A model generated the notes under the pieces. The model did not search any database, was not told the DNA's origin, and saw nothing but the letters and a program-made list of their open reading frames with translations. A DNA stretch of 64,000 nt, taken from Telopea speciosissima (Eukaryota; Streptophyta; Magnoliopsida; Proteales; Proteaceae). The first letter of the stretch is position 1; the number at the start of each line of letters is the position of its first letter. Shown in pieces: positions 9,620 to 62,642 of the stretch. The position numbers were made by a program, and so were the translations under genes. The stretch spans positions 47,793,043-47,857,042 of the forward strand of contig NC_057926.1 in NCBI RefSeq assembly GCF_018873765.1. The letters run 5' to 3'.

Positions 9620-11584
9620 TTTGGGGGAAGCAACTATGGCAGAAGCTTGAGCATTGAATGGGATTCTAGAGGAATACTGTAGATATTCAGGGCAGGCCAT
9701 CAACATCAATAAAACAAGAGCACACTGTAGTAACAACGTGGACTCTGCAATTAAGAGACAAATGAGAGAATTCTTTCAGATCAGTCTATCTTCCTCTATT
9801 GATAAGTATCTGGGGATTCCATTTGTGGGAGGAAAACTTTCCAAAAAATCATTGCTCAGATTTACTTGTGAGAGTCAACAAAAAACTTCAACATTGAAAA
9901 ACGCAATTCCTCAGCCCTGCAGGTAAATTAGTTTTGGTCCAGTCGACATTGTCTGCCATGCCATTGTATGTAATGTCTTGTTTCAAGATTCCTGCATCAG
10001 TTCACAAGACATTGGATGTTACAAGTAGGAATTTTTTCTAGTCTAATGGCAGTAAAAAGATGATTCCAACTATTTCTTGGACTACTATTTGCGAACCTAA
10101 GAGGTATAGGGGCCTTAACATTAAGCAATCAGCCTCGATGAATCAAGCATTACTAGCTAAGAAAGCTTGGGAACTAATGACAAATCATTGTTCGTTGTGG
10201 GGGAGACTGATGAAAAACAAATACTTCCCAAATTCGACGTTCCTACATGTTCAATGCCCATCTACAGCCTCCTGGGGTTGGAAATCTATTTGTTCAGCAA
10301 GAGATCTCATTTGAAAAGGCCTTTTTTATTCAATTAGGGAATGGGCATTCTATTGATCCATGGCTTGATTATTGGATGCCATCCTTTTCTCCATCTGTCG
10401 CTCCATTGCCATTGCTCATGGGAGCTCCAGAGAAGGTTGCGGATTTGATTGATTTTCAAATCGGCTCTTGGAAAAGGGAATTAATATTTCATTGGTGGCC
10501 CCCAGATGTTGCATTTCGTATCTTATCGATTCCTATTCCTATTTTTCCTGGAGATGATAAATTTATATGGGCAGCAAATTCTAATGGCTTGTTTTCGGTG
10601 GCTTCGACATACAACATCGCTATGAACGACTTTTCACATCATAACGATTCACTCTGGCTCAAGATCTGGCACCTCCCTTCTATCCCTAAGGTGCAACATC
10701 TTATATGGAAAATTCTTCACAATAAACTTCCCCTACCTGATATTCTCATTAGTTGGGGACTGAATTTGAGTCCGTTATGCACTCTTTGCATGGACCATAA
10801 TCAATCTATGGAGCATCTATTTGGTGGCTGCATTAAGACTCGGTACGTATGGCATCAAGCGAGGTTAATTCATCTCTTCAGGAATCAACCATTTAGCTCG
10901 GCATTGCGCATTCTCATCAAAGATCAGAATAACTCAGAGAAAGACATCATCTTGTTTATTGCCTATTGCTGCAATATTATTTGGAACATATGGATCAGTT
11001 ATTGGGATTGGACTTTCCGGCAGCAAATCTTCAATCCTAATGAGATTGTTCTTAGATCCATCAGAGGAGCCAAGGAGGTTGCTAATCAATTCCATTTTGC
11101 TTCGATCAATTCCAGAAGATTGGTTTGTTGGATTCCGTCGCCTCAGTAATTTGTGAAATTCAACATCGATGGAGCTAACTTGGGTAATCCGGGCAATGCT
11201 GGGATTGGGGGAGTCTGCCGAGACTCAAACTCTAATTTCATTTGTTGCTTTTCGGAAGGAATTGGGTGGAATTCTGCCTTAGTGACCAAAGCTTTGGCGG
11301 TTCGAAAAGCATTGTTGATGGCTCAGTCACTCAATTTAAGGAAGATGATCTTTGAAACAGACAATCTCTTAGTGATGCGTCTTCTAAGTGGCTATTCGGA
11401 AACTATTCCTTGGCGAATCAGGACTATCATCATATCAACGATTGCTTCAATTTGGTTCCAGCTTTTGATAACATTAGGTTCTTCTCCCCCTCCTTAGTTT
11501 ATTTCTCTTGCTTTGTATGGTGACTATATTGGAACATTGTTCCATCGTTAATAAAGTCTTTTCATAACAAAAAAAAAAAAAGAA
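9620..11584 (+). mobile_element. 5'-truncated L1-type LINE, about 2 kb
   Basis: The insert ends with 'cttttcataac' plus a poly(A) tract at about 11570-11582. It is flanked by an 18-bp imperfect target duplication: 'gagatagcttcaaatttt' at 9602-9619 and 'gagataactccaaatttt' at 11585-11602, two mismatches. It carries the C-terminal part of a plant L1 ORF2: the end of the reverse transcriptase, the zf-RVT region and an RNase H domain. The 5' part, including the endonuclease, is missing, as is usual for LINE insertions. Frameshifts and one in-frame stop make it dead. Confidence 0.85.
9654..11497 (+). pseudogene. L1 ORF2 remnant (RT C-terminus, zf-RVT, RNase H)
   Basis: The protein is readable in three consecutive frames. 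At 9654-9926 comes RT tail sequence (SGQAININKTRAHCS, KYLGIPFVGGKLSKK). At 10060-10314 comes RYRGLNIKQSASMNQALLAK. At 10247-11149 comes the zf-RVT region (LWLKIWHLPSIPKVQHLIWK, then CTLCMDHNQSMEHLFGGC). After a TAA at 11147-11149 the same frame continues at 11153-11497 with an RNase H-like start (FNIDGANLGNPGNAGIGGV) and ETDNLLVMRLLSG. At least two frameshifts and one stop disable it. It would have made the reverse transcriptase that primes on nicked target DNA. Confidence 0.85.
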
Positions 11585-12338: not shown

Positions 12339-13790
12339 GGGAAAATTTCACAGACACCCCTTAAAAGTATTCAATATCTCAGAAACTTACCATACTTGGT
12401 CAAAATGTCACAGGCACCCTTTATTTTTATGAATTTGTTTCAATTTAGTCCACTCTGATAGTCTTTACAGTTAAGTGTCTATTAACTCTTTTTAAATAGT
12501 GAAATTACCCTTACCACAATGAAATCCCTATAATACCTTAAATGATGAATTAATGATCTTAGAAGTTAGTTTTTAGAAAAAGACAATTTCGCCCTTGTTT
12601 TTAATCAATACTTTTTTTTTATTCCTTTTTTCTCCCCTTCTTCTTCCCCTTCTTCTCCTTCTGCTGTTTCTTCCGCCACTACCACCACTCCTTCTCTTGC
12701 TCCCCTGCAACCCCGCCACCACCCTCTCCAGTCTCCCCTACCCGACCATGCTCTCAGCAATCCAATCCCATAAAAACCCTAACTCTACAAATTAAAAACC
12801 TAACCCTACAAATTAAATGCTAAATATTGTTTGTCCTGGAGATCGATCACCATATAGAAGGTAACCTCTCTTCCACGCTCTCCTTGTGTTCTGATAAAAC
12901 GATTGCCCATCTGCAAAATCTCGAAGATCAGCCATTAGTTCAGCTTTTTTTGCAGGGTCCATGGCCAATGTATCAAAAGTACTTGGGTGCTTGAATGGCA
13001 CAGCTTCCCATGGATGACCCCTCGAATCAAGAGCTCCACCTCGAGAATTTGTGTAGAGAAGTCGATCTTGATTTTTTCTTCTGATCTCATTGGCCTTCTC
13101 CATGATGTAATCAAGATAAGAATCAAGGATCAAGACCTTATCTTTCTTATTGATTCGAAGAGTGAAGCCTCTCTTCTCATCAGGAAGAGGTCTCCAAGCG
13201 TAGCTTTGAGATTGTCTCTGTGTGACCACATGCTCCCAAGTTGCTGTGACGCCATTGAATGTATCGACCAAGCAATCATTATTTGATAGCCCAAATGTGA
13301 AGGCACTTGAATTCTTGGCTCGAGTGAGGCTCAAACGGTTGCGGGTGATTGAAGCAAAGCTGCTGAGGTAGAGTTGAGCTGCATTGTACAGCTCGTTTGT
13401 GTTGACACCATCGATCTCTGTGATGTCAAAGTAGCAGTAAGAGGAGAACCATTGGAAGGTACGAGTGAAGAGCTTCAGAAGGGTAAAATGAAGCTCTGGC
13501 GGGAACAGGGAATGTAGGGTTAGGGTTTTGTCCTTAATAACTACGGGGTAAAATGGATATTTATGGAAGAAGATGGAATGACAGTTTTGTCCTTTTATTT
13601 AAATAATTAAGGGGTAAAATGGATATTTCACAGTTTTGTCCTTTTATTTAAATAATTGAGGGGTAAAATAGATATTTCACCTTTGGGTACTAACTGTGCT
13701 TAACATTTGGGGTGTCTGTGATATTTTGATCAAGTATGATAAGTTTATGAGATATTGGATACTTTTAGGGGGTGTTTGTAAAATTTTCCC
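12339..13790. mobile_element. Pack-MULE (Mutator-like) carrying an AAA-ATPase gene fragment
   Basis: A 1452-bp element. Its ends are inverted repeats of about 95 bp: 12339 onward reads 'gggaaaatttcacagacacc', and the reverse complement of the right end reads 'gggaaaattttacaaacacc'. The arms stay alignable through 'caatatctca' and 'tcacag(g/a)cacc'. It is flanked by a perfect 9-bp target duplication 'tatatttaa' (12330-12338 and 13791-13799), the length made by Mutator-superfamily transposases. It encodes no transposase, so it is non-autonomous. Its interior is largely a captured fragment of a host gene. Inside the right arm is a short direct repeat built on 'ggggtaaaatggatatttca'. Confidence 0.9.
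12849..13503 (-). pseudogene. Captured fragment of a BCS1-like AAA-ATPase gene
   Basis: From 13503 downwards on the minus strand the frame reads PPELHFTLLKLFTRTFQWFS, then SSYCYFDITEIDGVNTNELY, LSLTRAKNSSAFTFGLSNND, GFTLRINKKDKVLILDSYLD, RLLYTNSRGGALDSRGHPWE, PFKHPSTFDTLAMDPAKK and RAWKRGYLLYG. This is the AAA-associated N-terminal region of the plant mitochondrial/ER AAA-ATPase family (At5g57480-like). The match stops exactly where the Walker A loop (PPGTGKS) should follow; here it reads DRSPGQ and soon ends. The membrane anchor before PPEL and the whole ATPase core are absent, so this is not a working enzyme. The frame is open over about 218 codons, which suggests a fairly recent capture or some constraint. 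Confidence 0.88.
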
Positions 13791-28467: not shown

Positions 28468-31400
28468 TTAGCAAACCCCATTAGTCTTCTTTTTGTCCTG
28501 AACAAACTTCCTCCAAGCCATAGTGATCTCCCTCTGTGTCTCCAAAGCAGTCTTCTTCAAAATAAGACTAACATTACCATTACACTCTTCTTTCTTATCT
28601 TCACAAGCCACAGCTAACTTGGCCGAGACCCTAGCAGGTAGAGCATCAAGTTCATGTAGTACCTTCTCAATATCCAACACAAGTCGCTCAGCAAAAGTGC
28701 GAGAGAAATCTTCACGGATCACAACACGAAGAACTGTTACATGTTGTGCATCTGGTGGCATTGTATATGCCGGCACAATCCACCCGAACCTCCTCAACAA
28801 GTCCGATATCTCGAACTCGTTGTGCTGACTGTTATCCTTTAGAGAGAAAGCAACCAGAGGGACACCATCAACCTTTGAAACAATGTTGAACCTCCCAGTC
28901 TTCTCCAATCCTTCTTTTAGAACTATCATGTTTTCACGGCAGTTCTCCATCACATTCCGGTATCCCTCATACCCCAAGCGAATTAGTTGATAGTATTGAG
29001 CAATTACTTGACTGGATCCTGCAATTTTTAGGAAACAATAAGGGCTTAATTATGAGCTGATGGAACGCGTTAAATCAAGTCCTTTAACCTAATTGATACT
29101 AGGTTGACCCAATCTAATCTAGCGTCCATACACTAGAGTAGGGCCTGTTAGGCGCATAAAAGACCACCATGCTTCCGCAGTCGTCATCCTAGTGTTAGGT
29201 AGCCCATTCCAAACGGCTCCACTCTACTCTAGGGTCTCTCTTAAGTAGCCCTTTCTGTGACTCGAAGCCGTGAAGTGGTGTCTGGCTCTAGAACCAAATG
29301 TTAGGTACTTGACTGATACGTCAAAAGCTCCAGAGCTGATGGAACACGTTAAATCAAATACTTTAACCTATATCATACTAGGCTAGCCCAATTTAACGCC
29401 CATACACTAGAGTGGGCTTGTTAAGGCACATAATATGCTATGTCATAGATTATGGGTGAATTACCTTTAGAGAAGTTGAGGGTGAAGGTGGGTTGATCAG
29501 CTCCAAGGTAGTTGATATGGAAGATGAGTTCTTCAGGCAAGTCTTCCTTGTTTCTCCAAATGACCCACCCAATACCGGCATAGACAAGACCGTATTTGTG
29601 GCCACTAACATTGATGCTCTTAACCAGCGGCAACCGGAAGTCCCATTCGAGCTCCGGGTCAAGGAATGGTGCAATGAATCCACCACTAGCTGCATCAACA
29701 TGGATTGGGGTATCCCATCTGCAAAAATGTAACATATACTATCAGTTTGCATGCGTTGATCCCTAATTTCGATTTGAACCGGTTTAATTTTGAAGAACAT
29801 GATGAACCAGTCCATTTTATGGGTTTGGTCCGGTTTATGTAATCTCAGCCTGGTCTAAAATGAGACAACATTTGCAAGTTCTAACTTGTTAGTGATCAAG
29901 ATCAAACATACCCTGTTTGCTTGTTCTTTTCTACCAAGAGATCGTTCAATAGCTTAACATCTTCGAACTCTCCATTAAGGGTCGAACCCAAGATAGCAGC
30001 GACACAGATTGTGTTCTCGTCGACCATTTCAACAGCTTTCACGGGGTCCATCACATAGTAACCTTCACAAAGCTTCACCTCCTTCAGCTCAACCTCAAAG
30101 TACCTTGCAAATTTCTCCCAGCAAACCTAAACCATAAGGAGACCATTGTAAGCGAACAAAATGGATAAGGCCCAATTTCTGAACTCACTAATGAAGAGCC
30201 CAAAATTATAGGCCCAAGGCCCATAATAGATCTATTGGGCCCATTAAAACCATTAAGTATATACCTGAACATTAGCACCAGTGACGATATTGGGCTTATC
30301 ACATGGTTTTCCTTCAGCCTTCCTTTTGTTTTGCCACTTCCTCTTGAATGCAAGCCCTGCAAGCATTATAGCCTCCGAGGAACCCACCGTTCCAACACCG
30401 ACGGCCGTCTCCGAATCCCCGAGTGGAGCATTGAATAGATGAGCTATCATGTTAACGCATCGATTCTACTCGAATACAAAAAGGAAAAGGAATTCATTAA
30501 AATTGACTATCACCATAGTTAAAGCAACAATTAGCTAAAGAAAAAAGCTCTAAAGCAAGATCCATTCCATCAAAGTTTCACAATCAGTATTATGAGCCCC
30601 TAAACTATATTAATTGGGCCCAGGCCCATTACTAGTTAACCAACTTCAAAAGCAATCTTCCCCTAACATTCAATTTTTCTATTATTATAGTCAATAAAGT
30701 TAGTCCATTGCGCGTTGGACTCGATCAAACAAATAGTTTATTTGTTGAAAGTTGAAAGTTGAAAGTTGAAAGTGTATACCTCATTATTTAACTAGAGGAC
30801 TTGTTTGTCGCTTGGATACTTTAATTATGTATTAAAATTTAAAACACTGGAAACTCAGATTAATTAACTAAAAATAGAGATTTGTTATCTCAAGAACCAA
30901 GATTCCAATCCAAGTGTCAATAACTAGAGTTCACAGTCTAGTAACTGTAGTCCTCTACAGAAACTCCCCTTGATGAACACTTCCTAGTTAGTGACTCATT
31001 CTTCAGAAGGCTTTGAGTGATCCGAAGACCCTAAAATTCTATCTATACCGTTGGATCGTTACCGACAATGAGGGTCTGACAATCAATTACTAAGAAAGTA
31101 AGAATAGGCTCTCCTTTTATCACAAAAAAGAATAGGCTCTCCACTGCATCTCAGCCGTCTATCTGATTGACCGATTCAAATATTTGTCTTTTCTTGTTTT
31201 TACCCAACTAGACTTTTGTGTCTAAAATTGCGCCTGTAGTCACGAGTCACGAGAACGTTCATATTTTTCAAAGGACCTTTTCAAATCCCATTTTGAAAAG
31301 TTGAACCACTTGTCCGGATTCAAACTACGAAAATACCCTGTACAAACAACTTCTTTGTAGGGTCAATTCAGTCATAATAGTTGAGAGCAAAGGATAAGAA

Positions 31401-47176: not shown

Positions 47177-50100
47177 ATGGGTTCTATGGAGGAGGAGAGA
47201 TTGCTCTTGGAAGATGGGCTCATAGAGGTCAGCTCGATTCATCTGCATTATTTTTATTCTTTTTTGTTGATTAATTTCTTCAGGTTCTATACTTTAAAAC
47301 CTTCTGCTTTAGATTTGTATCCTTGTTCTGAATTTTATTCTTCAAAGGGTGTTGTTCTGTTGTGTTGTTTTACCCATTTCAGCTGTTTCAGAAGTTTCTT
47401 TTTTTTGGTGGGTAAGTTTCAGAAATTGTTCATTTGAAGTAAATTGAAATCCCGAGAGAGAGAGAGAGAGACTCCCACACCCCTTTTTGTTTATAAGGTT
47501 AGGGTGGGCGCAGGGAAGGTGGTGTGTGGCTAGTTGTTACAGAGGACAGGTGTTGAATCCAGTGATCTTTTTGCCTGTGTAGTATATTGTGAAATCATAA
47601 GAAGGAACTTGTTAGTTTCTCATGTTCTCATCACAGAAGCCATTTAGGGTACAAACATGCCACTAGCTTGAACTTTAACTGCACTTTCTTTCATTTTCTC
47701 AGTATTTTATTGCTGGTTCAGATTGGATCATATACTATGGCTTTCTCAACCAAGGCACTGGATTGATTATTTTTGGGTTTTGATGTTTTTCTCTAATTGT
47801 TTACTTTTAAACTATTGAAGTCCTGTACATTTTCAATTTTTTTGTTCTTTTTTCATAGATGCTCTAATCATGGACTGGGAGCAATAAAGTGGAAATTTTA
47901 TCCTGTCTAAGCAACTAAGAACACTATATACCCTTTTGTAGTTGGAGTGCAAGATCGTTTTCTTTTCTCCTGTGAGCATGGAAATATCAGATCATAATGG
48001 GCAAGAATTTGGTGTAGTTTATTAACTTGTAAGCATCAACAATCCTGTTAACTTCTTTGTTTCTCCATGTAGATGAGATTGGCCTGGTACATACAATTTA
48101 AGAATATTCCTCCAAAGAACTCCAAAGGTTCAGCATCTATTTCAATGCCTCTACTATTTCTAGATATTTCTAGGAGTTGATGTACTTCATATTTTTTTCC
48201 GCAGACCGAATTAGGAAACTTGGCTGTTTGATATGCTGGATTTGAAATTCCCCAAATCAATCAAAACCACACTAGCAATAGTTTAAACAAAAGGGTTGTC
48301 CCCTATGAAATGAATCTAATAAGAAAAACCCCGTCACTTAGGATTTAGATTATAGAAAGTACTGTATATGTGCAGAGAAGAAAAGAGAAACAGAATCTGA
48401 CCCAAACTGTGCAGTGGGCTTATGCAACTCATACTCAATGCACCTTTACAGCCCTCAATTATCTCAACACCAGCATCATTTGACGAATCCCTTTATAACC
48501 CTCAATCCTGCGGCCATCAGAAGCAGGATGTTCATGCCACCATAGACCTGCATTCACGCATTAGTGTTTCAGATGTATCTTACTTTTGAGCATTGATGAG
48601 ATGGTTTGAAACCCCCAAAAAATGAAATGGTTTCCATATCCCTTAAAGAAGTACAAAGTGTGTTTAATAATTCACATAAACAAGTTACTTGAATTAGCAG
48701 TTCAAGATGAGTGATTTATTTAGAGTAAACCTGTGGTTCAAAGTCATGATTTCCTATTTTGTTAATCTTGCCTTTTAGCCCATGTAACTACGTTGCTTGC
48801 AGGATGGTTCAATACATTGACTACAAGGTTTTTGATGATAAATATAAGAGGAAAAGCAAAGATTTCTTGAGTGAATCTGACCTCAAACACAAGATTTTAT
48901 CTCAATGATTGTTTTAATCAATGCTATCTGATTGTTCACAAGATTTGATCACATTGGTTGCTTATACAGTCTAATCATCATTGAGAATGGTTTAAGTGTT
49001 GCCAAATCATAAAGAGTCAAAATCATCATTGAGAATGTTTTAATTCCATGTGGATGGAATTGTTGCACAATATGTACAATTGAGTTGGTGTCAACAGTTA
49101 AATTAAATTCCCTTACATAAGACATCTTTGAGAAAAGAGATGGTGATGACATGGCAATTGATGAATGTGCATTTGTTTGGACACCAAAAAAGCAAACTTG
49201 TGTACAGCTACATCCTCCTCTCCCCCCTCCCCCCCACAAGAGAGAGAGAGAGAGAGGTGCATAACATATATATAGGTTTTGGACTTGACTTGAATTGAGT
49301 TGGTGTCAACAGTTAAATTAAATTCCCTTACATAAGACATCTTTGAGAAAAGAGATGGTGATGACATGGCAATTGATGAATGTGCATTTGTTTGGACACC
49401 AAAAAAGCAAACTTGTGTACAGCTACATCCTCTCCCCCCTCCCCCCCACAAAGAGAGAGAGAGGTGCATAACATATATATAGGTTTTGGACTTGACTTGA
49501 ATTTGGTTCAGTTAATTGCAGAGTCCTTCTACCTGACCTGTCTACCCCTTAGTAATTTGCAGAAATCTAGTAATCCCTTCTGTGTATAGGACCTTTTCTT
49601 GGTACTAACCTGTCTTGCAGAAATTGATCATGAATTACCTGCAAGAAAGAGAAATGATTATATCCTTGATATATAAATTCATCAAGCCACTTGAACTTTT
49701 TATATAATGCTTTAGAAAGATTACCTTTAAAAAAATAAAAAAAATAAAAACAAAAAACAAAGAGCTAATCTGCCTTGTGGTACTCTCAGTCTGTAACTTT
49801 TATACTAACCATTGTCATAATTGGAAATAAAGCACAACACGTAATATACCCTTAGGGTGTCATTTCAGGATTTGATGTTTTATGCACTATAGAACCGAAC
49901 TGCGAAAGTATGGGATCTATCCTATGTGTAAAGCTTATATTTTTTATCATCCATTTATCTTTTTTAGACTACCATAACTCTTCCATTTCCCTTTGGAACT
50001 TTCTACTCCATTGAGACCATCTCCCTCCCCCACCCCCCCCCCCCCCCCCCAAAAAAAAAAAAGAAAAGAAAAACCAAAGGTGTGAGGGTTATGGAGCATT

Positions 50101-53100
50101 TTATAACAATACCTTCATGTACTTTTTCTTCCATATGCTTCAGAATGGTAGCAGAGGACCATACACAGGAGATGGATCTGTTGACATTAATGGGAAGCCT
50201 GTGTTGAAGCAGAACACTGGGAACTGGAGAGCATGCCCCTTCATTCTGGGTACTCACTGTTCATACTGCGTTTGCATATCTGCTAGAGTCCATTATAGAT
50301 TTGACACTTGGAAAACAAAATGCAGGTACTGAAGGCTGTGAGCGTTTGGCATACTGTGGAATTGCAGCAAATCTTGTTACTTATCTCACAAGCAAACTAC
50401 ATGAAGGAAATGTCTCTGCTGCAAGAAATGTTACCACTTGGTCTGGCACTTGCTCTCTTGCACCTCTCATAGGGGCTGTTTTAGCTGATTCATATTGGGG
50501 AAGATATTGGACAATTGCCGTTTTCTCCATTATCTACTTCATTGTAGGTACATATTGGGATTGTGTTCCTTTGGTTAATTTAATAATTAATTTTTGTGGG
50601 ATCTTGATTTCTTGCATAGAACATATATGATGAACATGAGATATATAATCCAGAATGAACTCTACCTGACCTCCATAACCTCTGAGCTCAAAATTTTAAA
50701 ATTTTCTCATCATTCCTGTATAGAGATTAGGCTTGTATGGCTAAGGGCCACCACTTGAAATATTGGGTCCTTCATGATTTGTGTGGATTGAAGGTTTCAT
50801 TGAGGATGATGTATGTCCAGTCATCATATAATACATCTTCATTTTTTTTTTCCGGTAATTTACTTGGTTCTTCAATTTTCTTCTCTTTGTATTTTCTGGA
50901 CAGCTGACTGCATGCACTTCTGTATAGGGAATGGGTACTTTGACCCTGTCAGCTTCAGTTCCTGCCTTCAGACCTCTTCCCTGCAGTGGTTCTGTTTGCC
51001 CAGATGCTACTCCAGCTCAATATGCTATATTCTTTTTCAGTCTATATCTGATTGCCCTTGGGACTGGTGGAATCAAACCTTGCGTCTCATCCTTTGGGGC
51101 AGATCAATTTGATGATACTGATCCGAGAGAGAGAGTGAAGAAAGGGTCTTTCTTTAATTGGTTTTACTTGTCTATCAATATTGGGGCTCTTATATCAAGT
51201 AGTCTTCTCGTTTGGATTCAAGACAATGCCGGTTGGGGACTAGGTTTTGGTATTCCTACTCTGTTTATGGGCCTTGCGGTTATAATTTTCTTTTCAGGCA
51301 CACCCTTATATAGATTTCAGAAACCAGGAGGAAGCCCTCTTACAAGAATGTGCCAGGTTGTGGTTGCATCTATCAGGAAGTGGAACTTGGAGGTCCCTCA
51401 AGATAGTTTTCTGCTTTATGAACTACGAGACGAAACCTCAGCGATCGAAGGGAGCCGGAAATTGGAGCATAGTGATGAACTCAAGTATATCCCTCTTAAC
51501 CTACAATGCTTATTCTACTCCCCTTCCCCCAAAATAAAATAAAATAAAAACTCATTTTAATTCAGGAAAATTTTAAAAATCCTAGGTCACAAGTTCTAAT
51601 ATGTATTTTTCGTTACATTTTAGTTTTATAATTCTGCACAAGTGTCTATTAACTTGGTCGTGAAATTTTCAGGACTCTTGATATTACTCTGTTTCTTTAT
51701 TGGGGAGTTAATTCTGTCCGTTTTCTTCTTTACCTGTGATGTTCTTTTTTTCTTGCTTGTGTGGGCTTGTAACTTGGATAGGTTAAACTTTGAGAACATA
51801 TATAATACCCAAGGAATTGCAAGTGTTTAATTAGAGTGGTTGAATTGAAATAGTCGTAAAGAAGTTAGTTAAGTTTCCTCTAATTCTTTTAATTTTGTAT
51901 GAGAATAGGGAAATTAGGATTAATTTTATTATCTATGCATACAGTATAATTTTACACATTCATATGTATGAGTTAATTAAAGAATGGAAATAGGAGAATT
52001 TTCAAAGTTAATCTGTCATTAATGAAATTTAAGATTATCAAATTAAAATATCTAGATTATGAAAAGCTGCAACAATAATAAAAAAAGATGCAGACAAGTG
52101 TTACAGATAAAACATCACCTACGCCGTTTTGCCTGTTTAACATTATGGGGCATATTATGAGACACCCATGAGAGGACATTTACGAAGCATGTCACCTAGC
52201 ATCAAATATCTGCCACGTGACTCTGTTGGGGCCCAAATTTTGGGGACAGGTTGACCTGAAGACATTTATTCCCCCCCCCCCACTTTTCCTCATAACCCCC
52301 CATCCCTGCTATGAGGGGTAAACAAAAAAGAAAAGAGGAATTATCATAAACTGCCTATGGCCGTCAATTGATCCAATCTTGATTGATATCCAATCTCTGT
52401 CCAATTTGATCACAGTAATCTAGCAAGGCCTGGTCTACTCTGATTGACATTACATACATTATTTTAATTTGTTTGTTTTAGAATTTGTAAGATGTGTTTA
52501 TTTCTCATATGAGCTAAAAATGCTCTTTTCCAGTGTTTTCCTTTTATTTCTGTCATAAATTGATCTTATAACACAAAATGCAGGCCTAGCAGATTCGATA
52601 AAATCATAACCAGTGGTACGGTATTAATAAATGGCTTGCATCATATTTGAATTGGATATTTGAGTCTTTGTTTGCTTTGAATTCGGATCGCCAAGGTTAT
52701 CAAATTACAAAATTTCCTTACTGGATACAGATGGAATCAAGGGATATGGATGGTATCAAGGGTGGTCCAGTTTAAGTCTGGGCTGGTGACAGCCCTAAAG
52801 CCGTCCCACCTTGTGAGAAGTTAATAATGTTTCTGTTGTATTGACTGTAGAATCATGCAAGTTGGGTCTTCAGGTTGATACAGATATATAGTGGCGTCTA
52901 TTGAGTGCCTCTGGTAGAGCACTTGATTTACTTAGCGAAGAGTAAATTTAACCTCTTAAATTAACTTCACCTAGTCCCCTCTCCCAAAAAAATATTTTCA
53001 TTGAATATTTTCCTCGAATATTAAATTTACTTAGCAAAGAGTAAATTTAACCTCTTAAATTAACATCACCTAGTCCCCCTCTCCCAAAAAAAAAAAAATT

Positions 53101-54108
53101 CTTATTTTCATTGAATATTTTCCTCGAATGTAATACACTCTACAATGTATGTCAAATATATACTTATAGAATATAAAGTAATGTTCGAATTGACATTTTT
53201 GAAGGTTTATCTTATTTAATTTCATGTATCTGCGACTGACATTGAAAAATTTTACCTGCAAGATCTTGACAGCTTGGTTATTCCACAGGTGCCTTGACAA
53301 AGCTTCCGTGGTGTCAGATCTAGATGTTAAACAAGACTATTCCAATCCATGGAGGCTTTGCACTGTATCACAGGTGGAAGAACTGAAGATTCTGATACGC
53401 ATGATTCCTATTTGGGCTACTGGAATAGTGTTTTCTGCTGTTTATGCTCAGATGTTCACCATGTTTGTGGAGCAAGGGATGGTTATGGACACGACTATCG
53501 GTTCCTTCACCATTCCTCCAGCATCATTGTTAACATTTGACATAATCAGTGTTATTGTGTGGGTTCCAATGTATGACAGACTCCTTGTTCCACTTGTGAG
53601 AAAGTTCACTGGTAAGGAAAGAGGATTCTCAGAGTTGCAAAGGATGGGGATCGGCCTCTTCATATCAATTCTAGCAATGTCTGTTGCTGCAATTGTAGAG
53701 ATCAAGCGGTTAGATATTGCAAAATCACTTGACTTGGTGGAGCATAATGTGGCAGTACCTATGAGTATTTTGTGGCAGATACCTCAGTATTTTTTGGTAG
53801 GGGCTGCTGAAATATTTATCTGCATTGGACAGCTCGAGTTCTTTTATGAACAATCTCCCGATGCCATGCGCAGTTTATGTAGTGCTTTGTCACTTCTCAC
53901 AGCTGCATTTGGGAATTACCTTAGCTCCTTTATCCTGACCATTGTGACAACCCTAACAACTAAAGGTGGAAACCCTGGGTGGATACCCAATAATCTAAAT
54001 GAGGGGCACCTTGATTACTTCTTTTTGCTCCTGGCAGGTCTTGGCTTCTTGAACCTGATAGTTTATATCTTCTGTGCCACAAGGTACAAATGCAAGAAGG
54101 CTCCTTAG
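47177..54108 (+). CDS. NPF/PTR family proton-coupled peptide-type transporter, copy 1, 5 exons, 583 aa
   Basis: Exons 47177-47227, 50144-50249, 50326-50543, 50928-51484 and 53289-54108; all phases close and all introns are GT-AG. The product is a 12-helix MFS membrane transporter most like Arabidopsis PTR2/NPF8.3 (di/tripeptide uptake with H+). It begins [17 protein letters not shown]. The helix-1 proton-coupling motif is intact as E55-G-C-E58-R59 ([11 protein letters not shown]). The helix-4 signature is [19 protein letters not shown] with K175. Later blocks are [51 protein letters not shown] and [17 protein letters not shown]. Length is normal. Intron 1 is 2.9 kb and contains a recent 215-bp duplication; intron 2 is only 76 bp. 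Subfamily placement is from memory of PTR2; substrate is inferred. Confidence 0.93.
49079..49500. repeat. 215-bp tandem duplication in NPF copy 1 intron 1
   Basis: The unit beginning 'attgagttggtgtcaacagt' (49079) restarts at 49294 with almost no change. NPF copy 2 has only one, more diverged, version (about 57927), so this duplication post-dates the gene duplication. Confidence 0.85.
52926..53130. repeat. 99-bp tandem duplication in NPF copy 1 intron 4
   Basis: 'atttacttagcgaagagtaa' at 52926 recurs as 'atttacttagcaaagagtaa' at 53025. Copy 2 has a single version at about 61550. Confidence 0.8.
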
Positions 54109-56216: not shown

Positions 56217-59200
56217 ATGGGTTCTCAGGAGGAGGAGAGGTTGCTCTTTGGGATTATAGAGGTCAGCTCGATTTATCTGATTTATTTTAGTCCTTTTGTT
56301 GTTTAAATTTCAGATTTTTCGAGTTAAAACTTTTTGGCTTTGGATTCTATTTGAAAAGAATGATTGGGACTTCAGTGAATCTCAGTTCTGGATTTTATTC
56401 TTTCAATTAACTGAGGATGTTGTTTGTGGGTTGATTCCGAAGGGCCGTTAAGAGGCAGTTAAGGACTATATGGGTATTTCGGTAAAATTTCTGTATAGGG
56501 TCTCACTATAAATATGTAGCGAGGGTACTTTCTCGGCGAGTGGCTGGAACCCTATTCTCCATTGTTAGTGAAACAGATCTTATCTCACCGCGGACGTAGA
56601 CAATCTAGCCGAACCACATAAATCCTTGTGCTCATTGTGTGATTGTTGTTTGCGATTTTCATTCTTTTCTGCATCGCTTTAGGATTCATTTTTCGACAGT
56701 TCTGCCGTGTTTTCACCCAATTCTGTTCTTTCAGGAGTTTCTTTTTGGTGGGTCTGTTTCAGAAATTGTTTATTTTGAAGTACATTGAAGTCCCAGGATC
56801 TGGGTATTCATCTCCTATTGAGAGAAATAGTGATGGACAAGGAAGAAAAGGGGGCCATAGATATATCATATTAGTTTCTCATGTTCTCCTTCACATAGTC
56901 ATTTGTGGTACAAACATGCCACTAGCTTGAACTTTAACTGTACTTTCATTTTCTCAGTATTTTATTACTGGTTCAGATTGAATCAGATATTGAGGCTTTC
57001 CCAACCAAGCCACTGGATTGAATATTTTTGGGTTGCGGTGTTTTTGTCTAATCATGTACTTTTAGATTATTGGAGGCTTGTACATTTACATTTTTTTTTC
57101 ATGGGTGGGTGTAATGGAGTGACAATTTATCCTGTACGATGAGGTGCAAGATCCTTTTCTTTTCCTCTGGTAAGCATGGAAATATCAGGTCATTATGAGC
57201 AAGAATTTGGTGTAGTTTATGAACTTGGAAGCATCAATAATCCTTCAACTTCTTTGTTTGTCCAGGTAGATGAGATTGGTCTGGTATATACAATTTAAGA
57301 ATTTTCCTTCAAAGAACTTCAAAAATTCAGCATCTATTTCAATGCAGCCTCTTTTGCCAAATCCATTTATAACCTCAATCCTGTGACCATCAGAAGTAGG
57401 ATGTTCATGCCACCGTAGACCTGCATTCTTGCATTAGAGTTTCAGATGCTGCTTAATTTTGAGCATTGATGGAATTGTTGGAAACTCCCAAAAATGAAAT
57501 GGTTTCTATGTTTCTTACAGAATTATATGTGTGTTTAATAACTGACATAACCAAGTTACTTGGATTAGTAGTTCAAATTAGTGATTTGTTTAGAGTAAGC
57601 CTGAGGTTCAAAGTCATGATTTCCCATTTCTTTAATCTTTCCTTTTAGCACATTTAACTATGTTGCTTGTGGGATGGTACATAAATTGACTGTAAGGATT
57701 TTGATGACAAATATAAGAGGGAAAACAAAGATTTCTTGAGAGAATCTGACCTCAAACACAAGATTTTTTTATTTCATTTAATCAATGTTGTTTGATTGTT
57801 CACAATATTTGATCACACTGGTTGATTTATATAGTCTAATCAATCATTGAGAATGTTTAAATGGTTGCGAAGTCATAAAGAGTCAAAGCCATTAATCCAT
57901 GTGAATGGAATTACTTTCGACGGTGTACAATTGAGCTGGTGTTAACAGTTAATTAAATTCCCTACTTGGGCATGTTTGAGAAAAGAGATGATGATGACAA
58001 GGCGATTGATGAAGTTTACTTGGAGCAGTGTGCATTTGTTTGGATATAAAAAAGCATACATGGATACACCTATAACTCTTCTTTAGACTACCATAACTCT
58101 TCCATTTCCCTTTGGGACTTTCTTACTCCGTTGAGACGATCCCCCTCCCCTCCCCCCAACCACCCTTCAAAAATAATAATAATAATAATAAAGAGGCAAA
58201 GAAAATCAAAAGGAGAGCTGGTTATGGAGTTTGTTACAACTATACCGTCATGCACTTTTTCTTCTGTGTGCTTCAGAATGGTAGCAGAGGACCATACACA
58301 GGAGATGGGTCAGTTGACATTAATGGGAAGCCTGTGATGAAGCAGAACACTGGGAGCTGGAGAGCATGCCCCTTCATTCTGGGTACTTCTTGTTCATACT
58401 GCATTTGCATATCTGCTAGAGTCCATTATAGATTTGACACTTGGAAAACAAATGCAGGTGCCAGAAGCATTGAGAGTTTTGCAAACTGTGGAATTGGAGC
58501 AAATCTTGTTACTTATCTCACAAACAAACTACATGAAGGAAATGTCTCTGCTGCAAGAAATTTTACCACTTGGTCTGGCACTTGCTCCCTTGCACCTCTA
58601 ATAGGGGCTGTATTAGCAGATTCATACTGTGGAAGATATCGGACAATTGCAGTTTTCTTCATAATATACTTCATTGTAGGTATATATTGGAATTTTGTTC
58701 CTGTTTGGTTAATTTAATTATTAATTCCCATGGGATCTTGATTTCTTGCATAGAATGTATATGATGAACATGAGATTTATAATCCAGAATGAACTCTACC
58801 TGACATCCATCACCTGTGAGCTCAAAAAGTTAAATTAGGCTTGGATGGCTACAGGGAATTAGGTCAAAGTTGTACATTTTTTTTTAACCCGAATATTATC
58901 TGGGACCCAGGTTGGCCCCTAGGATTTTATTAGAAAAATATGTAGGCAAATAGCTGCCTTACCCCAAACCCGAAAGCACTTGAGCTCACTCAAAATAGAC
59001 AAACCACCCAAACCCATAAGGGGATTACCCTTCATATTTTTCTAAAGTTGTACATAATTTAGAAAGAAAGGGAGGAAAGGTTACAAGTCAGAAATCAGTA
59101 CATCCATTGAACTGCTAAAATCTCCATCTTATTCTGAGCCACTCCTATTTTGTCCATGATGGTGGGCCACCAGTTGAAATGTTGGGCCCTATATGATTTG

Positions 59201-62200
59201 TGTGGATTTAAGGTTCATTGAGGCTGATGTACCTCCATTCATCATATAACACATCTTCATTCCCCCCCCCCCCCTCAATTTACTCTTGTCTTCAATGTTC
59301 TTCTCTTTGTATTTTCTAGACAGCTGATTGCATGAACTTCTGTATAGGGAATGGGGACTTTGACCCTGTCAGCTTCAGTTCCTGCATTCAGACCTCCTCC
59401 CTGCGATGGTTCTGTTTGCCCAGCCGCCACTCCAGCTCAATATGCTATTTTCTTTTGCAGTCTATATCTGATTGCTATTGGGATTGGTGGATACACACCT
59501 TGCATCTCGTCCCTTGGGGCAGATCAATTTGATGATACTGATCCAAGAGAGAGAGTGAAGAAAGGATCTTTCTTCAATTGGTATTACTGGTCTACCAATA
59601 TTGGGGCTCTTATATCAAGCAGTTTTCTTGTTTGGATTCAAGACAATGCTGGCTGGGGACTAGGTTTTGGCATTCCTACTCTGTTTATTGGTCTTGCCAT
59701 TGTAATTTTCTTTTCAGTCACACCCTTTTATAGATTTCAGAAACCAGGAGGAAGCCCTCTTACAAGAATGTGCCAGGTTGTGGTTGCATCTATCAGGAAG
59801 TGGAACTTGGAAGTCCCTCAAGACAGTTTTCTGCTCTATGAAGTACCAGACAACACCTCTGCAATTGAGGGGAGCCGGAAGTTGGAGCATAGTGATGAGC
59901 TCAAGTATATCCCTCTTAACCTATGTTGCTTATTCTACTCCTCTCCCAAAAACATAAAAAAAACTCTTCTTAATTCGGTAAAATTTAAAAATCCAAAGTC
60001 ATTAGTTCTAATATGCTATTTGCTTTACATTTTTAGTTTTATAATTCTGCACAATTGTTTATTAACTTGGTCATTGTGGATTTTTCAGGACCCTTGATTG
60101 TACTCTGTTTCTTAATTGAGGAGTTAAATTCTGATTGTTTTCTTTTTCAGCTGTGTTGTTCTGTAGTCTTGCCTTTGTGGGTTCGTAACTTGGATAGGTT
60201 CAAATTTGAGCTTTCCCTCAAAGGTTTGAGAACACATATGATACCAAATGTACTTGCATGTGTTTAGAAGTTATTGACTTGTTGAATTAAAATAGTCATA
60301 AATTAGAAAAGAGAAGCTAGGATTAATTTTATTTAATATGCATAGAGTAAAAGGTTTACACATATATGTATGGATTAATTAAAGAATGGCTAGAAGAGAA
60401 TTTTCAAAGCTAAGCTGTCATTATTGTAATTTAAATTTATCAAATTAAAAGATCTAGACTATGAAAAGCTGCCACAGTAATAGAAAAGATGCAAGCATGG
60501 TTTACAGATAAAACATCACCTAAGCCCTTTTGCCCCTTTAAATTTATGGGGCATATTCTGGGACACCCACGCTCTAATCTTCCCCCTACCCCGCCCCCCC
60601 TGCTCACATCTCCCCTACTGTTAAGTCTCACGGTGAGGCCTGCCCTCTGCATCTCTCTCTCTCGCACACACACACACACACACACAAACAGAGTTATGAG
60701 ATCACATCATCATTAGGCCCTTTATTATAGTGCCACCTCATTATATGGAGGGTTAAAAAATCCAGTTACAAATTCTGTTTGTAACCTGCTTGGTTACAAA
60801 CAGTACAAGCAGACACACCCTTACTTAATTGTTGGTATTAATGCGTATTTAGTGTGCTGTAAATATTTACTGATTTGTTCTAAGCATAAAGACACTTATT
60901 TCCTCCTTCCCTCACCACTCTCCACCCCTGCAATGAGTAGTAACCAAAGAAAAAAAAAGAGGAAGTTGATAAGCTGCCTATGGTTGTCAATTGATGCAAT
61001 CTTGATCGAGATCCAATCTCAGTCCAGTTTTATCATAGAAATTTTGCAAGGGCCTGGTCTAATCTGATTGACATAGCATAAACTTGTTTACCATTACATA
61101 CATTGTTTTAATTAGTTTGTTGTAGAATTTTTTAACACGTGTTTATTTCTCTAATGGGCAAAAAAGACTCTTTCTAGTGTTTTCCTTCTGTTTCTGTCAG
61201 AAGTTTATCTTATAACAAAATGCAGGCCTAGCAGATTCGATAAGATCATAACCAATGGTACAGTATTAATAAATGGATTGGATCATATTTGAATTGGATA
61301 TCTGAATCTTTTTTGGATTTGAATTCGGATCACTAAGGGTTATCAAATTACAAAATTTCCTTATTGGATTCGATTGGGATCAAGTGTGATCCAGTTTAAG
61401 TTTGATCTGTTGACAATCCTAAAGCTGTCCCACCTTGTGAGAACTCAATAATGCTTCTGTTGTATTGACTGTAGAATCATGGAGGTTGGGTCTTGGGGTT
61501 GATACAAGTATACAATGGCGTATATTGAGTGGCTTCGGTAGAACACCCAATTTACTTAGCGAAGTGCAAATCTAATCTCGTAACATCACCTAGTCCCCCC
61601 CCCCCCCCCAAAAAAAAAAAAAAATCTTATCTTTTATTGAATATTTGCCTTGAATGTAATGCTTCAACTCTACAGTGTATGTTGAATATATACTAATAGA
61701 ATATGAAGAATGCTTGAACCAACATTTTGGAAGGTTTTATCTTTTTGAATCTAATGTCTCAATGACACACATTGATTTTTTGTTGCCTGCATGATCTTTA
61801 CAACTTGGTTATTCCACAGGTGCCTTGACAGAGCTGCTGTGGTGTCAGATCTAGATGTTATACAGGGGGATTTCTCCAATCCGTGGAGGCTCTGCACTGT
61901 AACACAGGTGGAAGAACTGAAGATTCTGATACGCATGTTTCCTATTTGGGCTACTGGAATAGTTTTTTTTGCTATTTTTGCTCAGATGTTCACCATGTTT
62001 GTGGAGCAAGGGATGGTCATGGACACGACTGTCGGTTCCTTCACCATTCCTCCAGCATCATTGTTAACATTTGACATAATCAGTGTTATTGTGTGGGTAC
62101 CGGTGTATGACAGACTCCTTGTTCCGCTTGCGAGAAAGTTCACAGATAAGGAAAGAGGATTCTCAGAGTTGCAAAGGATGGGCATCGGCCTCTTCATATC

Positions 62201-62642
62201 AATTCTATCAATGGCTGCTGCTGCAATTGTAGAGATCAAGAGGTTAGAAATTGCAAAATCACATGACTTGATGGAGCATAATGTGGCAGTACCTATGAGT
62301 ATTTTGTGGCAGATACCTCAGTATTTTTTAGTGGGTGCTGCTGAAATATTTACCTGCATTGGACAGCTTGAGTTCTATTATGAACAATCTCCCGATGCCA
62401 TGCGCAGTTTATGTAGTGCTTTGTCACTTCTAGCAACTGCATTAGGGAATTACCTTAGCTCCTTTATTCTGACCATTGTGACAACCATAACAACTAAAGG
62501 TGGAAACCCTGGGTGGATACCCAATAATCTAAATGAAGGGCACCTTGATTACTTCTTTTGGCTCCTAGCAGGTCTTGGCTTCTTGAATCTGATAGCTTAT
62601 GTCTTCTGTGCCACAAGGTACAAATGCAAGAAGGCATCTTAG
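56217..62642 (+). CDS. NPF/PTR family transporter, copy 2, coupling residues lost, 5 exons, 582 aa
   Basis: Exons 56217-56261, 58277-58382, 58458-58675, 59348-59904 and 61820-62642; phases close with no stop or frameshift. It is the tandem paralogue of the gene at 47177. Most helices are almost identical ([60 protein letters not shown]). The helix-1 motif that reads EGCER in copy 1 reads R53-S-I-E56-S57 here, and the following LAYCGIAAN is FANCGIGAN. The helix-4 signature [12 protein letters not shown] reads [12 protein letters not shown], so the conserved Lys is T173. [10 protein letters not shown] has become [10 protein letters not shown]. In this family these residues couple transport to protons, so the protein may be uncoupled, altered in substrate or non-functional. 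Intron 2 is 75 bp, a multiple of three without stops, so its retention would add 25 residues in frame. Confidence 0.88.
56435..56650. repeat. LTR-like insertion in intron 1 of NPF copy 2
   Basis: 'tatagggtctcactataaat', 'accctattctcc' and 'tctcaccgcggacgtag' with 'gccgaaccacataaatcc' resemble the transcribed part of plant Copia LTRs. It is absent from the matching place of copy 1. I could not fix its exact ends. Confidence 0.5.
58383..58457 (+). other. 75-bp stop-free intron (exitron-like)
   Basis: GT-AG intron 2 of NPF copy 2. It is 25 codons long, with no stop in the host frame. The same intron in copy 1 (50250-50325) has one extra A and is 76 bp, so retention there shifts the frame and soon stops. 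Confidence 0.7.

Follow-up and report, generated by a model that had tools for sequence, protein, structure and literature searches.

Tandem NPF/POT genes in the Telopea speciosissima window

Inspection of a 64,000-nucleotide stretch of the Telopea speciosissima genome (C11:47793043-47857042; referred to as the window) revealed two complete genes of the NPF/POT (PTR2) transporter family in tandem, each with four GT-AG introns in the exon models. Copy 1 (47177-54108) encodes 583 amino acid residues, and copy 2 (56217-62642) comprises five exons with a frame of 582 codons that is open throughout, as a preliminary description made from the letters alone had claimed. The starts of the two genes are 9 kb apart and 2.1 kb lie between them. 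From their resemblance we take both copies to be NPF8-like. Copy 2 has acquired replacements at charged residues of the proton-coupling network in helices 1 and 4 and is still under purifying selection. Both proteins match the Pfam family PF00854 (PTR2; curated cut-off 27 bits) over its full length, copy 2 with 407.7 bits (profile positions 1-392) and copy 1 with 434.9 bits, and PTR2 was the sole Pfam match of copy 2. As the profile begins past helix 1, the ExxER motif of that helix is not tested by the family match. The exons of both genes are located as follows.

47177..47227, plus strand: copy 1 exon 1 (exon model)
50144..50249, plus strand: copy 1 exon 2 (exon model)
50326..50543, plus strand: copy 1 exon 3, helix 1 with ExxER (direct reading, exon model)
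50928..51484, plus strand: copy 1 exon 4, helix 4 with Lys175 (direct reading, exon model)
53289..54108, plus strand: copy 1 exon 5, helix-10 Glu485 and stop codon (direct reading, exon model)
56217..56261, plus strand: copy 2 exon 1, start codon and retained EEERLL stretch (exon model, alignment)
58277..58382, plus strand: copy 2 exon 2 (exon model)
58458..58675, plus strand: copy 2 exon 3, helix 1 with RxxES for ExxER and Tyr to Asn; farther on Trp to Arg and Ser to Phe
59348..59904, plus strand: copy 2 exon 4, helix 4 with Thr for the conserved Lys (GGYTPC versus GGIKPC)
61820..62642, plus strand: copy 2 exon 5, C-terminal bundle with retained helix-10 Glu (E484) and stop codon

Exon 1 of copy 2 is two codons shorter than that of copy 1, in frame, and the longer form also occurs in a third gene of the array (c3, see below); the EEERLL stretch is presumably of the acidic di-leucine type. 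In intron 1 of copy 1 (49078-49463) a stretch of 171 bases is tandemly duplicated, with 215 bases from start to start and 95% identity, whereas its counterpart in intron 1 of copy 2 is present only once.

In helix 1, the ExxER of copy 1 corresponds to RxxES in copy 2, that is, the first Glu (E1) is replaced by Arg and the Arg (R) by Ser, while the middle Glu (E2) is retained. In helix 4, T173 of copy 2 takes the place of K175 of copy 1. The helix-10 Glu, with which the helix-4 Lys is proposed to pair, is retained in both (E485 in copy 1, E484 in copy 2), so that copy 1 has opposite charges on helices 4 and 10 (K175/E485) and copy 2 does not (T173/E484). Also, the first Tyr of the xYY tail that follows the motif is Asn in copy 2. 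The helix-1 and helix-4 residues had been quoted correctly for both copies in the preliminary description, and correctly placed: its interval 58458..59540 spans exon 3 of copy 2, which begins at 58458, intron 3, and part of exon 4, where the helix-4 codons lie. Its claim of a joint loss of ExxER and the helix-4 Lys holds for E1, R and Lys, but not for E2 and the helix-10 Glu, which were kept.

As had been noted, eight of the 16 codons in the helix-1 stretch differ between the copies; all eight differences are replacements and none is silent, compared with 69 of 581 aligned codons with replacements and 58 silent differences over the whole protein (88% identity). Three methods gave 0.058-0.060 replacement substitutions per replacement site (dN), 0.156-0.176 silent substitutions per silent site (dS) and a ratio dN/dS (omega) of 0.33-0.38, with a bootstrap range of 0.23-0.48 in one of them. 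Intron divergence by the Kimura two-parameter distance was 0.188 across 3237 aligned bases and hence near dS. The comparison by exon that had been proposed earlier yielded an omega of 0.45-0.51 for exon 3 and of 0.26-0.42 for exons 4 and 5. When the whole protein was scanned for clusters of replacements with correction for position, the helix-1 cluster obtained p = 0.007, 0.03, 0.14 and 0.12 for spans of 10, 16, 20 and 30 codons, respectively, and restriction to changes assigned to the copy 2 branch gave p = 0.003, 0.011 and 0.005 for 10, 12 and 16 codons. The helix-1 cluster is real but moderate. Three codons of copy 2 carry two changes each (GAA to AGA, TGT to ATT, and ATC to TAC), and for the codon that turned Glu into Arg a compensated frameshift, with one base gained and one lost, appears by eye to be of similar parsimony to seven substitutions.

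Direction of change and selection on the two copies

Searching the whole genome (822.9 Mb, one assembly) identified three further relatives on C11, of which c3 lies on the same strand and c4 and c5 are inverted, and one on C6; two genes on C1 (C1a, C1b) and one on C2 served as outgroups, giving seven comparison genes in all. Copies 1 and 2 are sisters in DNA and protein trees (support 100 in both), followed by c3, then by the C6 gene, which is placed outside copies 1/2 and c3 with support of 97 (DNA) or 62 (protein), and then by c4 and c5. ExxER and the helix-4 Lys are present in all eight other genes compared (copy 1 and the seven comparison genes), so the RxxES/Thr state is derived in copy 2. 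Among 90 helix-1 places in the genome, 50 were read, and 44 of these have the full motif, three a partial one (copy 2 and two of the AGVER type) and three no charge, a count that is skewed towards the full motif because the other 40 places score lowest. An attempt to polarise the 69 replacement sites with NRT1.1, NPF2.10 and SLC15A4 alone, of which 23 matched copy 1, 12 copy 2, 8 both and 22 neither, with 4 lacking an outgroup, was superseded by the relatives from within the genome; NPF6.3 (NRT1.1) and NPF2.10 were the only plant NPFs among the solved structures found. Viral and GTDB collections yielded no relatives.

Codon models were fitted with a script of our own and not with a published program. 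Among branches, omega was lowest for the background (0.155) and highest for the ancestor of copies 1 and 2 (0.43), with copy 1 at 0.37 and copy 2 at 0.36. For copy 2, a value of 1 was rejected, with twice the log-likelihood difference (2dlnL) amounting to 17.5, and so were 0.2 and 0.6 (6.2 and 4.7), while 0.25 and 0.5 were accepted. Purifying selection thus acts on copy 2 as strongly, on average, as on copy 1.

Copy 2 is set apart by where its replacements fall. Replacements polarised to its branch hit columns that are invariant in the seven comparison genes in 22 of 39 cases, compared with 3 of 25 for copy 1 (Fisher p = 0.0005). Similarly, across the nine genes, unique departures from otherwise invariant columns numbered 21 in copy 2, three in copy 1, one in c3, none in the C6 gene and c4, and five in c5; the distant outgroups had six (C1a), 30 (C1b) and six (C2). 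For exon blocks 2+3, 4 and 5, the copy 2 branch accumulated 13, 14 and 12 replacements along with 4, 14 and 12 silent changes, and the copy 1 branch 1, 8 and 16 replacements along with 4, 7 and 7 silent changes. A model in which a class of sites is freed to omega 1 improved on the two-class model by 2dlnL = 26.6 for copy 2, with 35% of sites in the freed class, and by 0.24 for copy 1 and 0 for both c3 and the C6 gene. For copy 2 this gain dropped to 3.05 when the columns of helices 1 and 4 (31 of 568), which had been picked after the data were seen, were masked; the bulk of the signal thus comes from these two helices. Invariant columns changed in copy 2 amount to 16 of 118 in the N-terminal bundle and 6 of 148 in the remainder (p = 0.007), the bundle boundary having been set by us at column 240. 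With these results the sequence state of copy 2, its direction of change, the retained selection and the concentration in helices 1 and 4 are established.

Copy 1 for its part is loose in exon 5 (53289-54108), with the 16 replacements against seven silent changes on its own branch. The Trp of the FFWLLAG-type stretch, which is found in seven of the eight other genes, is Leu in copy 1, and C1b also has Leu.

Downstream of the window (C11 47860405-47891901) the array goes on: one NPF gene has the orientation of copies 1 and 2, and two are inverted. The final gene has its exons 3 and 4 at a distance of 8-9 kb, and sequence that looks retroelement-like by eye adjoins exon 3. Elsewhere in the window, the open reading frame at 28468-28977 (minus strand) gave a sub-threshold match to a pyridoxal-dependent decarboxylase (24.4 bits; cut-off 27) and may, by resemblance, be the terminal exon of a gene for glutamate decarboxylase; that at 12813-13334 (minus strand) gave a sub-threshold match to an AAA-associated domain (22.5 bits; cut-off 26.4) and perhaps belongs to an AAA-ATPase gene. 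An open reading frame at 10247-11149 (plus strand) matched zf-RVT, a zinc-binding reverse-transcriptase domain, with 64.3 bits and is probably a retroelement remnant.

Proposed release of the coupling network and alternative explanations

The reading that we tentatively favour, with a chance somewhat short of even, is that copy 2 is a maintained paralogue with a released coupling network and probably works as an altered or uncoupled carrier. Once it had separated from copy 1, constraint on the proton-coupling and substrate site of the N-terminal bundle would have been lifted. Drift or weak selection would have fixed the replacements of E1 by Arg, of R by Ser, of the first Tyr of the xYY tail by Asn and of the helix-4 Lys by Thr, with fold, frame and helix-10 Glu maintained. 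Without E1, R and Lys, proton binding would be untied from the gating steps, and copy 2 might work as an uncoupled carrier, exchanger or leak that lets a peptide or another solute move down its own gradient. Mutants of known carriers form the background to this proposal (the papers cited here and below are drawn on in excerpt). In PepTSt and GkPOT, Ala mutants of E1, E2, R and Tyr30 are reported to lack proton-driven uptake and to retain counterflow, mutants of the conserved residues assayed in the C-terminal bundle are described as transport-deficient, and mutation of the helix-10 Glu is stated to abolish transport in the members tested (PMC4331665). Similarly, helix-4 Lys mutants of PepTSt and GkPOT lost proton-driven uptake and retained counterflow, and K164A/D mutants of NRT1.1 lost nitrate uptake and retained nitrate-dependent currents (PMC3950950). 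By analogy, the pattern of copy 2, with E1, R and Lys changed and E2 and the helix-10 Glu kept, is what would be expected of a carrier that binds or exchanges its substrate but is not driven. Uncoupled is a prediction here, since motif loss is common in plant NPFs and since DtpC, an atypical bacterial POT, is reported to be coupled without E1 and R. The preliminary proposal of a functional change in an otherwise preserved protein was borne out in part: the changes are derived, they sit in an intact frame that selection still preserves, and helices 1 and 4 account for most of the relaxed constraint, whereas the motif was not wholly lost.

Several observations weigh against a released network in copy 2. 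A higher omega in copy 2 than in copy 1 was tried and ruled out (2dlnL 0.006), and positive selection was not found on the copy 2 branch, where the branch-site model returned omega2 = 1.00. At nine columns where the seven comparison genes are invariant, both copies have changed, so that loosening predates the split of copies 1 and 2, and freeing a site class on the ancestor of copies 1 and 2 gave a gain of 2dlnL 9.6. With omega equal in both copies and the ancestor already loose, relaxation as such is not particular to copy 2. One of the nine shared columns is the equivalent of Tyr30 of PepTSt (mapping from PMC3950950), the second Tyr of the ExxERxxYY tail, which is Cys in both copies; for this reason copy 1 may itself be altered and not a fully ordinary peptide carrier. 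To the late choice of the masked helices must be added that masking only the three codons with two changes left a 2dlnL of 13.9 for copy 2. G249V and S120F (copy 1 numbering) in copy 2 could damage any carrier, and Gly at position 249 is common to NRT1.1, NPF2.10 and SLC15A4. For MtNPF1.7, complementation in planta is reported to survive a change to Ala of E2, of K or of the helix-4 Arg, though not the replacement of E1 (PMC8282211). DtpC, coupled as it is, also belongs among these points.

Alternatively, copy 2 may recently have become unneeded, and its replacements would be drift in an early pseudogene whose frame is intact only because of the short time elapsed. This is unlikely in our estimate, though a serious contender. 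The 22 of 39 replacements at invariant columns are close to random, as 266 of 568 columns are invariant (p = 0.26), the missing sign of positive selection agrees with drift, and the mean omega of 0.36 could average over a time of constraint and a neutral last quarter of the branch. However, if indels arose as often as in the introns (54 for 536 substitutions in aligned sequence, of which 45 break frame) and stops at their mutational chance, a frame that was neutral for the last 24% of the branch would have stayed whole with a probability of only about 0.006, and over the whole branch of about 4e-10; if stops alone are counted, the values are 0.20 for a quarter of the branch and 0.001 for all of it. 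Both coding indels between the copies are multiples of three, the changed invariant columns cluster in the N-terminal bundle and are not spread evenly, and copy 2, with its intact frame, four GT-AG introns and rejected omega of 1, lacks the marks of a decayed pseudogene. Early decay, which had been offered before as one possibility, is thus disfavoured by the odds of frame survival, whereas a shorter neutral period still fits. Rather less probable is that copy 2 is still proton-coupled with a changed substrate, in the manner of DtpC (Q1xxE2Y), where loss of the Arg that holds the peptide carboxylate would make E1 dispensable and E2 would carry the proton. The retained E2 and helix-10 Glu and the further changes at conserved positions in helices 4, 5 and 7 are in line with this, and DtpC is said to be coupled despite the loss of E1 and R (PMC9309889). 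On the other hand, E1 became Arg in copy 2 and not a neutral residue, and copy 2 lacks the helix-4 Lys, whose mutants in PepTSt, GkPOT and NRT1.1 lose proton-driven uptake according to PMC3950950.

It is improbable, but conceivable from the charges, that the network of copy 2 was rewired and not lost, leaving a carrier that works with a simpler coupling core. The changes of E1 to Arg (+2), R to Ser (-1) and Lys to Thr (-1) cancel out: the network made up of E1, E2, R, helix-4 Lys and helix-10 Glu now has three charged residues where it had five, yet its net charge is still -1, and a rewired network is possible on that account. The Arg, shifted by one helical turn along helix 1, may pair with E2 and counter the charge of the helix-10 Glu. 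Such a core, if true, would be young enough for each step to be replayed from copy 1. That copy 2 is a non-transporting partner, receptor-like or dominant-negative, which binds substrate or associates with copy 1 but does not turn over, we regard as quite improbable: frame and mean constraint are retained and NRT1.1 has been termed a nitrate transceptor (PMC3950950), but positive selection is not apparent, PTR2 is the sole Pfam match and the sequence gives no hint of signalling. Least probable is an assembly artefact or gene conversion from an NPF gene with the same motif. The changes are clustered in about 40 bases of exon 3 and include the three codons with two changes each; however, the copies diverge throughout exons and introns, and a whole-genome DNA search with exon 3 of copy 2 found six places, of which the five others align from base 14 or 15, so that the first 13 bases matched copy 2 alone. 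RSIES occurred in none of the 49 other NPF helix-1 sequences read out of the 90 places in the genome. Gene conversion from another NPF gene was rejected within these limits, as neither the DNA search nor the 49 sequences contained a donor.

Comparison with known systems

Motif loss in plant NPFs is already well described; the interest of copy 2 lies in its close canonical sister together with a change that is concentrated in the coupling helices. Whether NPFs without ExxER are passive, otherwise coupled or changed is treated as an open question in the surveys, as far as excerpted (PMC6288477, PMC12780319). The surveyed cases are mostly whole subfamilies in which many other changes have accumulated. 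As copies 1 and 2 start 9 kb apart and their proteins are 88% identical, swapping residues between them can reveal what four or five positions contribute, and the pair represents a natural experiment on how proton-driven carriers lose or rebuild coupling. Among open-licence PMC texts, no paper matched on Proteaceae peptide transporters or on NPF8 tandem copies with ExxER.

Like the NPF8/PTR transporters (AtNPF8.1-8.5), copy 2 belongs to the PTR2 family, and its sister genes have a helix 1 of the ECCERLAYYG type, but it differs from them in RxxES and in lacking the helix-4 Lys. Across 42 plant genomes, the full ExxER/K motif was reported for 221 of 282 NPF8 proteins and the pair between transmembrane helices 4 and 10 for 244 of 282 (PMC6288477), and from these figures motif loss in NPF8 is a known minority state. 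Among plant NPFs overall, the same survey gives 1469 of 2383 with the ExxE(R/K) motif and opposite charges on helices 4 and 10 in 83%, neither feature being strictly defining. None of 181 NPF7 proteins had the full motif or the helix 4-helix 10 pair, and several A. thaliana NPF2a (NAXT) members are described there as passive nitrate or chloride carriers (PMC6288477). NPF7 and NPF2a thus resemble copy 2 as plant NPFs without the full motif. However, their loss is subfamily-wide, whereas here it concerns one tandem copy at a dS of about 0.16-0.18 from its canonical sister, copy 1, and copy 2 is not devoid of chargeable motif residues, as it keeps E2 and gains an Arg at position 1.

AtNPF6.3/NRT1.1 is 41% identical to copy 1 and has E41, E44, R45, K164 and E476 at the equivalent positions. 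Ala mutants of E41, E44 and R45 are reported to lose uptake and sensor response (PMC3950950); copy 2 differs from NRT1.1 in being naturally changed at three of the five positions (the equivalents of E41, R45 and K164). DtpC (YjdL) resembles copy 2 in having lost E1 and R and kept E2 (Q1xxE2Y), and is nonetheless described as a proton-coupled peptide transporter, so the possibility raised in the preliminary description, that the same substitutions occur in coupled relatives, is realised in part. In contrast to copy 2, DtpC has a neutral residue and not Arg in place of E1, and it is said to depend on a conserved transmembrane Lys, which copy 2 lacks (a title cited in PMC9309889).

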